This document shows, piece by piece, positions 5,666 through 27,483 of a DNA stretch of 37,098 bases. Source of the stretch: Desulfatiglandales bacterium (GTDB taxonomy: Bacteria > Desulfobacterota > DSM-4660 > Desulfatiglandales > HGW-15). Below the pieces are notes generated by a model, which was not told the origin of the DNA, did no database searches, and was given only the letters and a program-made list of their open reading frames with translations. The stretch is taken from positions 1-37,098 of the forward strand of contig JAQYVK010000044.1 in the NCBI GenBank assembly GCA_030145585.1. Reading direction: 5' to 3'. Made by a program: the position numbers and the translations under genes. Position 1 is the first letter of the stretch, and each line of letters opens with the position of its first letter.

Positions 5666-6955
5666 ATGGGCCAACAAGATTTTGAAAATATTCCCTACAT
5701 GCTTTATGCAGACCGAAAGGGGAGGATATATGAACATCCCTATTTTCGGATGGCAGGGTTTTCCGGGTTGCAACCGATGTCTCTCAAGGAAGAAGACCTC
5801 ATACCCATGCCACAGTTCAGCAAACTCTTTTTCATCCCGGATTGTCCACCCATCGGACTGGATCCTTCAACCGGGGATTACAAGGTTGTCCCTGAGGTCA
5901 GGGTAAACGGTTCCAGGACGAAATGCTCGGCGGTCGCGACCTTTCTCGAACCCGGATTGGTGCGGGGGCTTCTTCCGGCGGTCGACTACAGCACAAAATC
6001 ATATGCTCTGCCCACCTGGGCCTACACCGCAGTCGGTTTTAAGGACGATAAATATTGGGCCGCGGGGTTTAGGATCGAATACAATCACAGGTGGGATCCG
6101 CGGTATTATGATGACAGGGAATTGGTCACAGCCATCGAGGCGTATCAGGAGAACCACTCCGGTGGCGCGCTCGTGGAACATCTTATTCAATGTGCAACCC
6201 AGAATCATTGCTTCGCGGCTAAAAATCTGTTTTTAAAAAGGTGGGAAGCGCCCCTTCCTGTTAGCCGGGGATGTAATGCCGGTTGCTTAGGATGCCTTTC
6301 CCTTCAGGCAGATCCCTCATGCGAATCATCTCACCAGAGGATCACCTTTACACCGACAAAAGAAGAAATCGTATCTCTTGCCGTGCGGCATCTGGAACAG
6401 GCACCAGAGGCCATTATGAGCTTTGGACAGGGATGCGAGGGGGAACCCCTTACTGAGTATAAACGCATTGCTGAGAGCATCAAGGAGATCAGAAAGAAAA
6501 CCAATAAAGGGACCCTGAATCTAAATACCAACGGGAGTTGGCCAGAGAGAATTCGGGAGGTGGCCCGCAGCGGACTGGATTCGATCCGTATCAGCCTGAA
6601 CAGTGCCCGGCCCGAGTTTTATCGTGCCTATTGCTGTCCGAAGGACTATGATTTCGAGGATGTTGTGTCTTCTATATCTCTATCGAGAGATTTAGAGCTT
6701 TATACCATGATCAATTATCTGGTATTTCCCGGCATTACGGATCAGGAAGAGGAAATAGCGGCCCTTTCAAAGCTTGTTCGAAGAACAGGGGTAAATTTCA
6801 TTCATTTGAAGAATTTAAACATCGACCCGCAACTTTACATGGATCGCATGCCGAATACCACTTCCGAGGCGGTGGGTATGAAAAAAATGGTAAGAATGTT
6901 GAAGAAAGAATTCCCGGATCTAGAGTTGGGGTATTTTAATCAGGCCGTTCGTTAA
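5666..6955 (+). CDS. Radical SAM protein with ~200-aa uncharacterised N-terminal region
   Basis: CNAGCLGC = CX3CX2C cluster motif; downstream MSFGQGCEGEPL and RISLNSARPEFY segments typical of radical SAM enzymes. Confidence 0.85.
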   Translation: MGQQDFENIPYMLYADRKGRIYEHPYFRMAGFSGLQPMSLKEEDLIPMPQFSKLFFIPDCPPIGLDPSTGDYKVVPEVRVNGSRTKCSAVATFLEPGLVRGLLPAVDYSTKSYALPTWAYTAVGFKDDKYWAAGFRIEYNHRWDPRYYDDRELVTAIEAYQENHSGGALVEHLIQCATQNHCFAAKNLFLKRWEAPLPVSRGCNAGCLGCLSLQADPSCESSHQRITFTPTKEEIVSLAVRHLEQAPEAIMSFGQGCEGEPLTEYKRIAESIKEIRKKTNKGTLNLNTNGSWPERIREVARSGLDSIRISLNSARPEFYRAYCCPKDYDFEDVVSSISLSRDLELYTMINYLVFPGITDQEEEIAALSKLVRRTGVNFIHLKNLNIDPQLYMDRMPNTTSEAVGMKKMVRMLKKEFPDLELGYFNQAVR

Positions 6956-7138
6956 GGGTTCACTCAAAAATAACTTAGCAGAATTCGAGGTCAGATTTGG
7001 GTCAGATTTGGTTATTCCGATTGAGCGAAACCACAGGAATAATCGTATTATTTCGAGGATTTTGCGATTGAGGAATGGCCAAAGATGGCCTGAAGATGGG
7101 ATGCGAAAATGTGAAGTTCTTTTTGAGTGAGCCCTAAA
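6952..7138. repeat. MITE-like non-coding element with ~25-bp imperfect terminal inverted repeats between convergent genes
   Basis: ttaagggttcactcaaaaataactt (6952-6976) versus reverse complement of aagttctttttgagtgagccctaaa (7114-7138), 22/25 matches; core ccacaggaataatcgtattatttcgaggatt. Confidence 0.8.
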
Positions 7139-8492
7139 GACCGATCGTCTTTCTAAAACGTAGGCAGCTATCATTCTTGTTGTTGTGATCCTCAAAGGAG
7201 ATTTTTACGATGTTGCGATAGGCCTTTTCTCTAGCGCCTTCAAGGGTGGAGTCCCCTGCGATGACATGCAGAACCCTCCCTCCATAGGTCACCAATCCTT
7301 TTTCAGGGTTTTCATCGACACCGGCGAAATAGATGGCCACCCCCCTTTCAACATCGTCCAACCCTAGGATTCGATGGCCTTTTCCGTAACGTCCCGGATA
7401 CCCCTTATTCCAACCACGGGAGGCCTTTGATCGGCCCTCCATGGCAATCACATCCACATAATGCTGATCGTTCCAGACCTGTTTGACCTCATCCAAGGTC
7501 CCGTCACAGACCGCCATACCGATTTCGAAAAGGTCCGTACTCAATTTGCGTGCGATGACCTCCCATTCCGGGTCTCCGTGTCTGACATTGATTTCAAACA
7601 CATCAAGGTTTTCATAGGGGTCCAGGTTGAGTCCGAAATAGACAACCCCCTGATAGGCCCACCCCAACGCGTTGTAAATTTCATTTACGAAGGGATTGAC
7701 GATTTCCTTAATGATTCTATTGACCAGCCATGGGGTCACCAATCTATGGGGGCAATAACAACCGGTTCCTCCTGTATTCAGATTGCCACCGAACTTCTCG
7801 ATGGACTCTTTGTCATCAGGATCGAATGCCGGTTTATAATCACGGGCAAACATCCTCAGAGGCAAGACATGTTTTCCGTCCAAGTAAGCGAAAAATGAGA
7901 TTTCGTCTCCATATTTTCTCTCTTCGATGACTACCCTGTTACCCGAATCACCAAATGCCTTTTGAACCATTATTTGATCAATCGCGGCTTCCGCGTCCGG
8001 GACATCTTCACAGACGATGGCCCCCTTTCCCGCAGCCAGGCCGTTTGCCTTGACAACGACCTGGTATCCGATGTTCCTCACGTAGGCCTTTGCCTGATCC
8101 GGATCATCAAAGACCCTGTACTCCGGTATAGGAACCCCTATTTTTTTCAACAGATCATCGGTAAATGCCCTGTCACTCTCCAACTTGACATAGTCTTTCT
8201 TCGGTCCGATGGTTCGCGTTCCTCGTTCGCTCAATATATCGATCAAGCCTTCCTCCAACGGATTTTCCGAACCCACATCCACCAGATCCACCTCATGCTC
8301 TTTACAGAAATCGGCCACCTGGTTGAAATTCTCTAACTTTACGACCTCGATGAGTCCCCTTTTCCCTTTCGGGGTATATGAAATCCCCGGATTTCCAGGA
8401 GTGATATAGACCTTATCCACATGCTGACTGTCCCCATAACTGTCAGCCAGGCAGTGATCTCTGCCGCCGGAACCGTAAACGAGTACTTTCAT
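7134..8492 (-). CDS. Divergent PurD-like phosphoribosylamine-glycine ligase (ATP-grasp)
   Basis: MKVLVYGSGGRDHCLA, VVVKANGLAAGKGAIV, AFGDSGNRVVIEE, NTGGTGCYCP and NVRHGDPEWEV align to PurD motifs but with many substitutions. Confidence 0.8.
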   Translation of the reverse strand: MKVLVYGSGGRDHCLADSYGDSQHVDKVYITPGNPGISYTPKGKRGLIEVVKLENFNQVADFCKEHEVDLVDVGSENPLEEGLIDILSERGTRTIGPKKDYVKLESDRAFTDDLLKKIGVPIPEYRVFDDPDQAKAYVRNIGYQVVVKANGLAAGKGAIVCEDVPDAEAAIDQIMVQKAFGDSGNRVVIEERKYGDEISFFAYLDGKHVLPLRMFARDYKPAFDPDDKESIEKFGGNLNTGGTGCYCPHRLVTPWLVNRIIKEIVNPFVNEIYNALGWAYQGVVYFGLNLDPYENLDVFEINVRHGDPEWEVIARKLSTDLFEIGMAVCDGTLDEVKQVWNDQHYVDVIAMEGRSKASRGWNKGYPGRYGKGHRILGLDDVERGVAIYFAGVDENPEKGLVTYGGRVLHVIAGDSTLEGAREKAYRNIVKISFEDHNNKNDSCLRFRKTIGL

Positions 8493-15033: not shown

Positions 15034-15750
15034 ATGCATAGCCCCATGAGGACAGTCGCCATTATACCCGCCGCCGGCGTGGGGGCGCGTATGGAAACTG
15101 ATAGGGCAAAGCAATTCCTGGATTTCCACGGGAAACCGCTTTTGACCGTTACTCTGGAAAAATTTCAGGATAGTCCTGCAATCCATGGAATTATTCTCGT
15201 TGTCCCGCAGGATCAGCTTGATTACTGTGCAAAAGAGATCATCGAGCCCTATCACCTCACCAAGGTGGAAAAGGTGATAAGGGGAGGGGCAAGACGACAG
15301 GATTCAGTCCGATTGGGAATCGAGGCCTCCAATGGGCACTACGAATTGATTTTAATCCATGATGGGGTTCGCCCTCTGGTTGATCCCGGGTTGATCGAAA
15401 AGGTTGTGGCCGCTGGAGAGAGAGAACGGGCTGTGATCACGGCTTTACCGGTCAAAGAGACGGTCAAGGAGGTGGATGGAAATGGCCGGGTCATAAAGAC
15501 CTGGGATCGGGGCCAGCTCCGGTTGGTGCAGACACCGCAGATTTTTCGATACGAAGATATCCTCAAAGCCCACCAGCTTGCGCTCCGGGAGGGATGGGAA
15601 GCAGTGACCGATGATGCCCTGCTGGTGGAGAAAATGGGCATACCCGTTAGAGTGATCGATGGGTCGGAAACCAATATCAAAGTAACAACACCCCATGATA
15701 TGGCTCTAGCGCGCCTGTTATGGAGAAGCGATCTCAAAAATACCAAATAG
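15034..15750 (+). CDS. ispD: 2-C-methyl-D-erythritol 4-phosphate cytidylyltransferase
   Basis: AIIPAAGVGARMETDRAKQFLDFHGKPLL; IHDGVRPLVDPGLIEKV; ATDDALLVEK-type motif (VTDDALLVEKMG). Confidence 0.95.
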   Translation: MHSPMRTVAIIPAAGVGARMETDRAKQFLDFHGKPLLTVTLEKFQDSPAIHGIILVVPQDQLDYCAKEIIEPYHLTKVEKVIRGGARRQDSVRLGIEASNGHYELILIHDGVRPLVDPGLIEKVVAAGERERAVITALPVKETVKEVDGNGRVIKTWDRGQLRLVQTPQIFRYEDILKAHQLALREGWEAVTDDALLVEKMGIPVRVIDGSETNIKVTTPHDMALARLLWRSDLKNTK

Positions 15751-15871
15751 CCCGATCTCTATGCGTCCTGCTGTTCACCGTCCTTGACCTCGGACCATTT
15801 TTCTATTTTTGAGATGGCTTCTAACAACAAATAAACAGCCTGAAAAGCAAAGACTTTGGATAAGTGAACAG

Positions 15872-25298: not shown

Positions 25299-26171
25299 TT
25301 ACTTTAAATTATTCTTTATGGCCCATTCAGCCACATGTATCGGCGTTGTGAGAATAGTCGACCCCGCCTCCTCCAATGCCTTACACTTACCTCCAACGGT
25401 GCCGGCGGAGCCCCTAACAATGGCTCCCGCATGGCCCATGCGCTTTCCCTGGGGAGAATACTGCCCTGCAATGTAGGCGGCCACAGGTTTTTTTATACTG
25501 TCTGCAATATATTCAGCGGCTTTTTCTTCCTGCTCCCCGCCAACCTCTCCGACGATGACCACACCATCTGTCTCATCATCTTCCTCAAAGAGTCTGAGAA
25601 TATCTAGTAAATTGGTAAGAACGACAGGATCAGCTCCCATGCCGACAACCGCGCTCTGCCCGACGTTCGCTTCCGACAGGATCCCGGCAAATTCGTACGA
25701 GAGGGTGCCGCTACGAGAGATAATACCTAAACGGCCGGGTGCAAAAAGCGAGGCGGGCATGATGCCCATCTTCCCTTTTCCCGGCACGAGGATACCCGGT
25801 GTGGTGGGACCCAGAGCCAGAACATCCCGTTCCAGCGCGTAGGTGCGCATTTTCATGACATCATGTACGGGGATATGCTCCGGAACGACAACAATGAACC
25901 GAACACCCGCATCCACGGTTTCATAAAATGCGTCCAAGACAAAAGGGGCCGGAACAAAAAAAACGGATGCGTTCGCCCCGGTCTCCTCCACGGCTTCCGC
26001 CACACTATCAAATACCGGTACCCCTTCCACAGTTGTCCCCCCTTTGCCAGGGGTGACCCCGCCAACGATAGGGGTGTTGTACTCCTGCATCCAATGGGTC
26101 TGGACCCTTCCGATTTTACCTGTAATACCCTGAACAAGGATACGTGTTGTTTCATCAAGAAAAATACTCAT
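25299..26171 (-). CDS. sucD: Succinate-CoA ligase alpha-subunit-like protein
   Basis: [46 protein letters not shown] active-site His region. Confidence 0.92.
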
Positions 26172-26197: not shown

Positions 26198-26341
26198 GAA
26201 GTGGTTTCAAAATCTTCAATCGAGTTCAAGATCACGGCGGGACAAGGCGTTCAACCGCAGGAATATATGTAATATTTTGAGGATTGGACGCCTTGTCCCA
26301 ACAAAGAGATTGGGCCCGAGGGGAGGTTTTGAAACCACTTC
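26198..26341. repeat. MITE-like inverted-repeat element between sucC and sucD
   Basis: gaagtggtttcaaaa (26198-26212) / ttttgaaaccacttc (26327-26341) perfect 15-bp TIR; nested gggacaaggcgttcaa / ttggacgccttgtccc; core cgcaggaatatatgtaatattttgaggatt. Confidence 0.85.
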
Positions 26342-27483
26342 TACTTCCCTTCTCCTACTAATTCAAACAACCGCTCAACCACAGCCTCGGTTGCTGCTTC
26401 AGTGACCACATGAACACCCCCGGAACGAAAGATTTCCCAAGTTTCTTCCTGCCGGTTACCAAGCGCCTTTGCAACGATCGGCAGTTCGATGTTATGTTCC
26501 TTAATATAGCGCACGACGCCTTTTGCCCCTTCATGAATCGGGTTGATGCCGCCATATACATTAATTATTAGGGCACGCAAATCAACTTTCATCATAATGA
26601 GTTCCATACACTTGTATAGCAGTTCTTCCGTAATGCCGCCGCCTGTTTCAAGGAAATTTGCCGGTCGCATTCTTTGGCCGATGATGTCCATGGTGGCCAT
26701 ACCAAGGCCCGCCCCGGAGGAAATCAGCCCTATGTCTCCGTCAAGATCCACATATGTGACACCGATTTCCTTACCTTTTCTCTCCAGTGGATTTTCAATC
26801 CGATCGAGAGGATCAGGAACAGAGAATCTGGCCCTCGAAAGGGCCGAATCGTCAATTTCCAGAACCGCGTCCACGGCTAGGAGGCCTTCATTAGGAAGGA
26901 CCACAAGGGGGTTGATTTCCGCAATAAGGGCTTCATGCATGATAAATATCTTAAAAAGTTTGACAATAACGTCTGCGCAAGAAATGAGGAGGCGTTGAGA
27001 CAATCCGAGACTTTTCAGAAGGGTTCTTGCTTGGTATGGGTGAAACCCGAATGCAGGGTCGACATGCACGGAGACGACTTTGTCGGGAGCGTGCCGCGCC
27101 GCTTCTTCTATCTGGACGCCACCCTCCGTGCTGGCGACAATGACAGGCTTTCCCGAAAATCCGTCCACAGTTATCCCGACATAGAGTTCCCTTGAAATTT
27201 CCGCCTTTTGACTGACTAAAATTTTTCTGACAGGTAAACCTTTGATCTCGTCTCCCAAGAGATTCCCCGTAAATTCTTCGAGCTCTTCAGGCGTCGAAGC
27301 CGTCTTTATCCCTCCAGCGAGCCCGCGTCCACCCACAAGAACCTGCGCCTTAAGGACAACCGGATAACCTATTTCTCCGGCCAGGAGCAATGCCCCATCA
27401 GTGGTTTCAACAATACCCCGTCGCGGAACAGGAATGCCCATATTTTCAAAAATATCTGCTGCTTCATGTTCATGCAGTCTCAT
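26341..27483 (-). CDS. sucC: Succinate-CoA ligase beta-subunit-like protein (ATP-grasp)
   Basis: MRLHEHEAADIFENMGIPVPRRGIVET; VVLKAQVLVGGRGLAGGIK; VTYVDLDGDIGLISSGAGLGMATMD. Confidence 0.92.
   Translation of the reverse strand: MRLHEHEAADIFENMGIPVPRRGIVETTDGALLLAGEIGYPVVLKAQVLVGGRGLAGGIKTASTPEELEEFTGNLLGDEIKGLPVRKILVSQKAEISRELYVGITVDGFSGKPVIVASTEGGVQIEEAARHAPDKVVSVHVDPAFGFHPYQARTLLKSLGLSQRLLISCADVIVKLFKIFIMHEALIAEINPLVVLPNEGLLAVDAVLEIDDSALSRARFSVPDPLDRIENPLERKGKEIGVTYVDLDGDIGLISSGAGLGMATMDIIGQRMRPANFLETGGGITEELLYKCMELIMMKVDLRALIINVYGGINPIHEGAKGVVRYIKEHNIELPIVAKALGNRQEETWEIFRSGGVHVVTEAATEAVVERLFELVGEGK

Follow-up and report, generated by a model that had tools for sequence, protein, structure and literature searches.

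The gap between a radical SAM gene and a convergent purD in a Desulfatiglandales bacterium is filled by a MITE that, in our best explanation and with high probability, was put in at a TWA trinucleotide by a trans-acting DDE-type transposase, leaving each gene with a stop codon and placing a hairpin in the transcripts. The element lies in a window of 37,098 nt (the whole stretch of DNA analysed here), which belongs to a genome (G000) of 4.7 Mb in 623 contigs (Table 1). An earlier note on this DNA had described an inverted repeat between the two stops, and this proved real, with arms at 6952–6976 and 7114–7138 that are 25 nt long and 88% complementary; the stops (TAA at 6953–6955 for the plus-strand frame, TAG at 7134–7136 for the minus-strand frame) and the flanking genes (a PF04055 match for radical SAM; TIGR00877, 384 bits, for purD) were likewise confirmed. 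The element itself is beyond chance, forming a single end-to-end hairpin (z = -10) and recurring in its own genome with the same ends. What had to be revised were its limits: the TAA found at both 6953–6955 and 7135–7137 is a 3-bp target duplication that lies outside the terminal repeats, and the element spans 6956–7134. A TA duplication for this element was dropped in favor of TAA once copies were compared.

Protein alignments revealed that relatives (~65–85% identity) match up to the last residue of both radical SAM and PurD, and thus each protein ends at its natural stop. When the element is taken out in silico together with one TAA, the letters read GTTCGTTAAAGACC, in which both genes stop again at the same codon, so that the ancestral junction, read from the letters alone, was probably a site (CGTTAAAG) of two overlapping convergent stops; given such a site, neither protein would have been altered by the insertion. 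The terminal G of the element converts the purD stop to TAG, and the exact fit between the stops at 6953–7137 follows from the TWA target, since TWA written as TAA is a stop codon.

Table 1. Coordinates of the element, its flanking genes and the related elements of the window.
Feature	Position	Strand	Remarks
MITE proper (group IV), 179 bp	6956..7134	+	plus is the best RNA-folding strand; copies lie between 3-bp TWA duplications with the same boundaries
Left terminal inverted repeat	6956..6976	+	GGGTTCACTCAAAAATAACTT
Right terminal inverted repeat	7114..7134	-
Left target-site duplication	6953..6955	+	TAA, the radical SAM stop codon
Right target-site duplication	7135..7137	+	TAA; its TA with the element's last base forms the purD stop TAG (7134–7136, minus strand)
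Radical SAM gene	5666..6955	+	natural C-terminus kept
purD	7134..8492	-	natural C-terminus kept
Conserved hairpin apex	7029..7061	+	AACCACAGGAATA-ATCGTAT-TATTTCGAGGATT with a 3x2 internal loop (RSA/GA); shared in G000 and across Desulfobacterota
Second clan member, group III ends	26198..26341	+	GAAGTGG..CCACTTC, inverted repeat; R1 match 26218–26321, 93.9 bits, E 1.9e-25
Third, shortened clan member	15724..15822	-	inverted repeat; R1 match 15744–15801, 25.3 bits, 61-position deletion

Copies, relatives and stop codons

Full copies with the same ends occur in G000 at 96, 87 and 81% identity, together with shortened ones, and this family (group IV) was found in more than 12 of the 61 related genomes searched, reaching, when counted as paired ends, ~110 copies in G018 and ~50 in G029 (148 and 62 as model matches). 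The 3-bp flanks are identical in 39 of 54 distinct copies, with 20 TAA/TAA, 19 TTA/TTA and no TAA/TTA mixtures, giving a target duplication of fixed length (3 bp, TWA). The 179-bp element carries no transposase gene, and forms of 42–139 bp retain both ends while their interior is shortened or replaced. The description of the element as MITE-like in the earlier note is therefore upheld: its copies are numerous and dispersed, have terminal inverted repeats and target duplications, and include forms with internal deletions.

The convergent radical SAM–purD pair is conserved in relatives, in which the gap measures 72–350 nt (1068 nt in one), and the group IV element is absent from that gap in the syntenic relatives, the nearest being ~76% identical. 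This bears on the proposal that the sequence is a bidirectional terminator, that is, a fixed intrinsic terminator of the convergent pair kept by selection. Such a reading would account for the location between convergent stops and for the A-tract and T-tract opposed at the stem base (CAAAAATAACTT / AAGTTCTTTTTG), but the absence from syntenic relatives speaks against it, as do the copies dispersed over unrelated loci, tandem and divergent gene pairs included, and a consensus scan that found in the element no terminator and no short GC-rich stem with a direct T-run, so we regard it as quite unlikely. Two relatives have other sequences in this gap: in another genus (L162) we observed a hairpin of a different kind, bounded by TGGCYTCGTAAAAAGTC ends and containing the same CAACGCAGAAATTGG block, and at L163 an apparently decayed GAGACC-ended copy.

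A second proposal held that insertion is aimed at stop codons. We compared the reconstructed targets of 125 copies, belonging to four end types, with all nearby non-coding sites that have the same target word, and found stop overlap in 20 (3/34, 5/20, 5/20 and 7/51 per end type), counts that are approximate because genes were called with a simple codon-score ORF caller. This is 4- to 7-fold above expectation in each of the four types (p = 0.011, 0.006, 0.0008 and 0.002), and in a stricter run type IV alone gave 4/39 against 2.2% expected. Stop-codon targeting is supported only in part. A transposase that specifically targets stop codons would fit this enrichment among permitted non-coding sites and the fact that all three elements in the window touch a gene's stop, but 105 of the 125 copies lie away from stops, the target words TWA, TA and TNNNTA are stop-like in themselves, and purging of insertions inside genes concentrates survivors at gene ends, making it very unlikely. 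Since the overlap concerns just 20 of 125 copies, the element does not target stops in themselves; their overlap is an enriched outcome, a by-product of the TWA target and of survival outside genes. Stop contacts of types I–III are made nearly always via the right end (13 vs 1; e.g., L068, L076, L106, L114 and L139), for which we can offer only a partial coupling to leading-strand genes, and those of type IV equally via left and right ends (4 and 4).

Hairpin fold and a core shared across end types

As RNA, the plus strand of the element folds end to end at -79.6 to -82.2 kcal/mol (z = -10) and the minus strand at -41.7 to -43.8 kcal/mol (z = -4.3), with the plus strand folding better in all 40 group IV copies examined. 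Unbiased alignment of the group IV arms gave 468 G-U against 146 A-C oppositions on the plus strand, compared with 191:140 in type I, 85:99 in type II and 130:92 in type III; shared descent inflates these numbers, and their p-values are too small because copies of one family are not independent. The strand preference is strong in type IV alone, which weakens the idea of a strong plus-strand preference in every end type. In the core, 96% of cells pair both in group IV, where 20 of 44 pairs show double changes, and in types I–III, where 22 of 33 do, and for neither set does any of 500 shuffles or any slid version come near this covariation. Arm complementarity could also persist without selection, via quasi-palindrome correction (template switching).

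The apex AACCACAGGAATA..TATTTCGAGGATT recurs in G000 within hairpins bearing other arms, and a search for its pattern over 84,980 species genomes returned at least 115 stretches, nearly all of those listed being labelled Desulfobacterota or Deltaproteobacteria and most being full hairpins of 142–150 or 180–200 nt; because the search used the apex as bait, part of its invariance is built in. Outside the bait, a second conserved block sets UCAAGG opposite CAACGCMGAGAU, and in G251 the apex has a different sequence (GCGGAGCATAT..AATATGTGAGC) and keeps a 3x2 loop of the form RSA/GA. Two apex matches (L044 and L095) fall in MAGs labelled Rokuibacteriota and Nitrospiraceae, which represent either real spread or mis-binned contigs. 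Rfam gave no match at gathering and, at E <= 10, just tRNA or sub-threshold chance matches; the phage collection gave chance-level matches alone, and viral contigs gave 5 matches, of which L155 looks like a chance match adjoining a tRNA.

Evaluating the ends of these hairpins separated several types around a common core of ~100 nt, which differ in the terminal ~20 bp and in duplication length (2, 3, 4–5 or 6 bp). Type I (GAGACC/GAGCC) has duplications of 5 bp (14/34 exact) and 4 bp (6/34), against shuffled means of 0.45 and 0.28; type II (GTGTCC) has a 6-bp duplication (9/20 exact; shuffled 0.89); TA is seen in the flanks of the GAAG-ended type; and type IV, with GGG..CCC ends, has the TWA duplication. 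Between types I and II core identity is 0.80, equal to that within a type, whereas the ends drop to 0.57 (shuffled 0.49) from 0.77–0.80 within either type. One core is therefore used with different ends, which suggests, at the level of sequence, a hairpin module recapped for different transposases.

A model of the core of types I–III, built without type IV (R1), matched in 45 of 198 Desulfobacterota genomes (36 of the 157 good ones). Model matches per genome reach maxima of 118–148 copies, R1 giving 118 in G251 (one contig of 2,751,635 bp) and 119 in G146. Two further clan members lie in the window itself. The second sits between sucC (26341–27483, minus strand) and sucD (25299–26171, minus strand), 26 bp from the sucD start, and its last base with TA forms the sucC stop TAG. 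The third seems to supply the C-terminal residues of IspD, since the ispD frame (15034–15750) runs ~25 bp into it and stops at a TAG inside its left end. We found no paper on this clan in the literature searched, whose coverage is without most subscription journals, and these long-hairpin elements of Desulfobacterota, with more than 100 copies per genome at most, are apparently undescribed.

Orientation, mobilisation and mechanism

In G251, 80 of the 90 copies in the sampled parts (loci L303–L362) have their plus strand on the lagging strand (80:10), orientation being minus for 49 of 54 copies in the half where the skew is positive and plus for 31 of 36 in the opposite half (p = 7e-14). Copies between tandem genes mostly run counter to those genes on the leading strand (43 of 48) and parallel to them on the lagging strand (18 of 20), so orientation in this genome follows the fork and not transcription. 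These observations favor a need for the hairpin as single-stranded DNA, in replication- or repair-linked mobilisation or retention, and not as RNA; in line with this, the plus strand also folds better with DNA parameters (85 of 90 copies), and G025 agrees weakly (~10 of 11 listed copies within its mostly skew-positive 0.1–1.9 Mb). We nevertheless think this role unlikely: G146 has no replication-linked bias (16:14), neighbouring type IV copies in G018, by a count made by eye, share a direction roughly as often as they differ, and target duplications indicate ordinary double-strand insertion. No signal emerged when GC skew of short loci was used to stand in for replication direction. Replication-linked orientation is genome-specific.

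PIF/Harbinger and some IS5 subgroups have a 3-bp TWA duplication and a terminal G-run, and group IV resembles their (Tourist-like) MITEs in both, although no IS5- or PIF-type transposase was found in the genomes tested. Transposases of PF13586 and PF13359 were found in 0 of 14 genomes, and the transposase families sampled yielded no autonomous element with group IV ends (GGGYTCRCKCAAAAATAA), the PF01609 loci examined being without such ends. At G018:C47, two group IV ends spaced by 1659 bp suggested an autonomous IS, but this candidate was rejected as its ends belong to two separate 93-bp elements and the genes between them look RmlD- and DnaJ-like (by eye). For another end type, a 2.2-kb IS-like stretch (L207:3–2179, G060:C78) contains a DDE_Tnp_1 gene and has type V ends like those of the AGGAGGCTGTCCGAGAATG hairpins, making it a possible autonomous partner of that type.

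With a 3-bp TWA duplication, a core found under several kinds of end and conserved internal loops, the clan differs, as it does in sequence and hosts, from ERIC, NEMIS (Correia) and RUP elements (PMC2229807, PMC10969869). It shares with them a length of 100–200 bp, terminal inverted repeats, target duplication, intergenic location, the folding of the whole element into one long RNA hairpin and tens to more than 100 copies. REPs, elements of 20–40 bp with tyrosine transposases, supply TAG stops from their ends, and G-T pairing in their stems has been taken as a sign of transcription (PMC3733652). Group IV resembles REP/RAYT systems in giving flanking genes a TAG stop, in its G-T stem pairs and in its position after genes. 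The imperfect hairpin after stop codons with one strand folding better might likewise recall an integron attC site or an IS200/IS605- or REP/RAYT-type hairpin, yet the element is 179 bp, with long terminal inverted repeats and fixed-length target duplications that REPs lack, and we saw no R-box motifs of attC at its ends. The target duplications rule out attC and IS200/IS605 identities, and we consider this whole group of readings extremely improbable.

Insertion by a transposase at TWA, the reading that we favor, would have proceeded as follows. A DDE-type transposase supplied in trans would insert the non-autonomous element at a TWA trinucleotide, here within the overlapping convergent stops of the radical SAM gene and purD (CGTTAAAG), where a 3-bp stagger would duplicate TAA and leave TAA on one side and TA plus G (TAG) on the other. 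Because both proteins would be left intact, the insertion would be tolerated, as intergenic insertions survive. Run-off transcripts of either gene would then enter the ~180-nt hairpin. Like NEMIS and ERIC elements, for which such roles have been put forward, it may serve as a substrate of RNase III or as a barrier at the 3' end; their part in mRNA 3' ends is the analogy that we draw on (PMC2229807; PMC10969869). By this analogy, and given that the plus strand is kept foldable through G-U pairs, the most likely role would be that of a transcript structure at mRNA 3' ends; that members of the family do not all point the same way relative to genes counts against it. More tentatively, and with considerable doubt, the ~100-nt core could be a module of its own. 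A host or replication factor would read it as single-stranded RNA or DNA via its two conserved internal loops, several transposon families with no kinship to one another would have spread it across Desulfobacterota, each adding its own ends, and in some genomes the fork would set its orientation.

To summarize their biology, this case indicates how an element that carries no genes can insert into the tightest of gene junctions, two overlapping stops, with both proteins unchanged, and following it exposed a phylum-wide, apparently unnamed clan of long hairpins in which the core lasts longer than the ends. The orientation bias tied to replication in one complete genome makes it possible to ask directly if it is as DNA or as RNA that the folded strand counts, and if the core is indeed one module for several transposases, the question of what recognises it arises.
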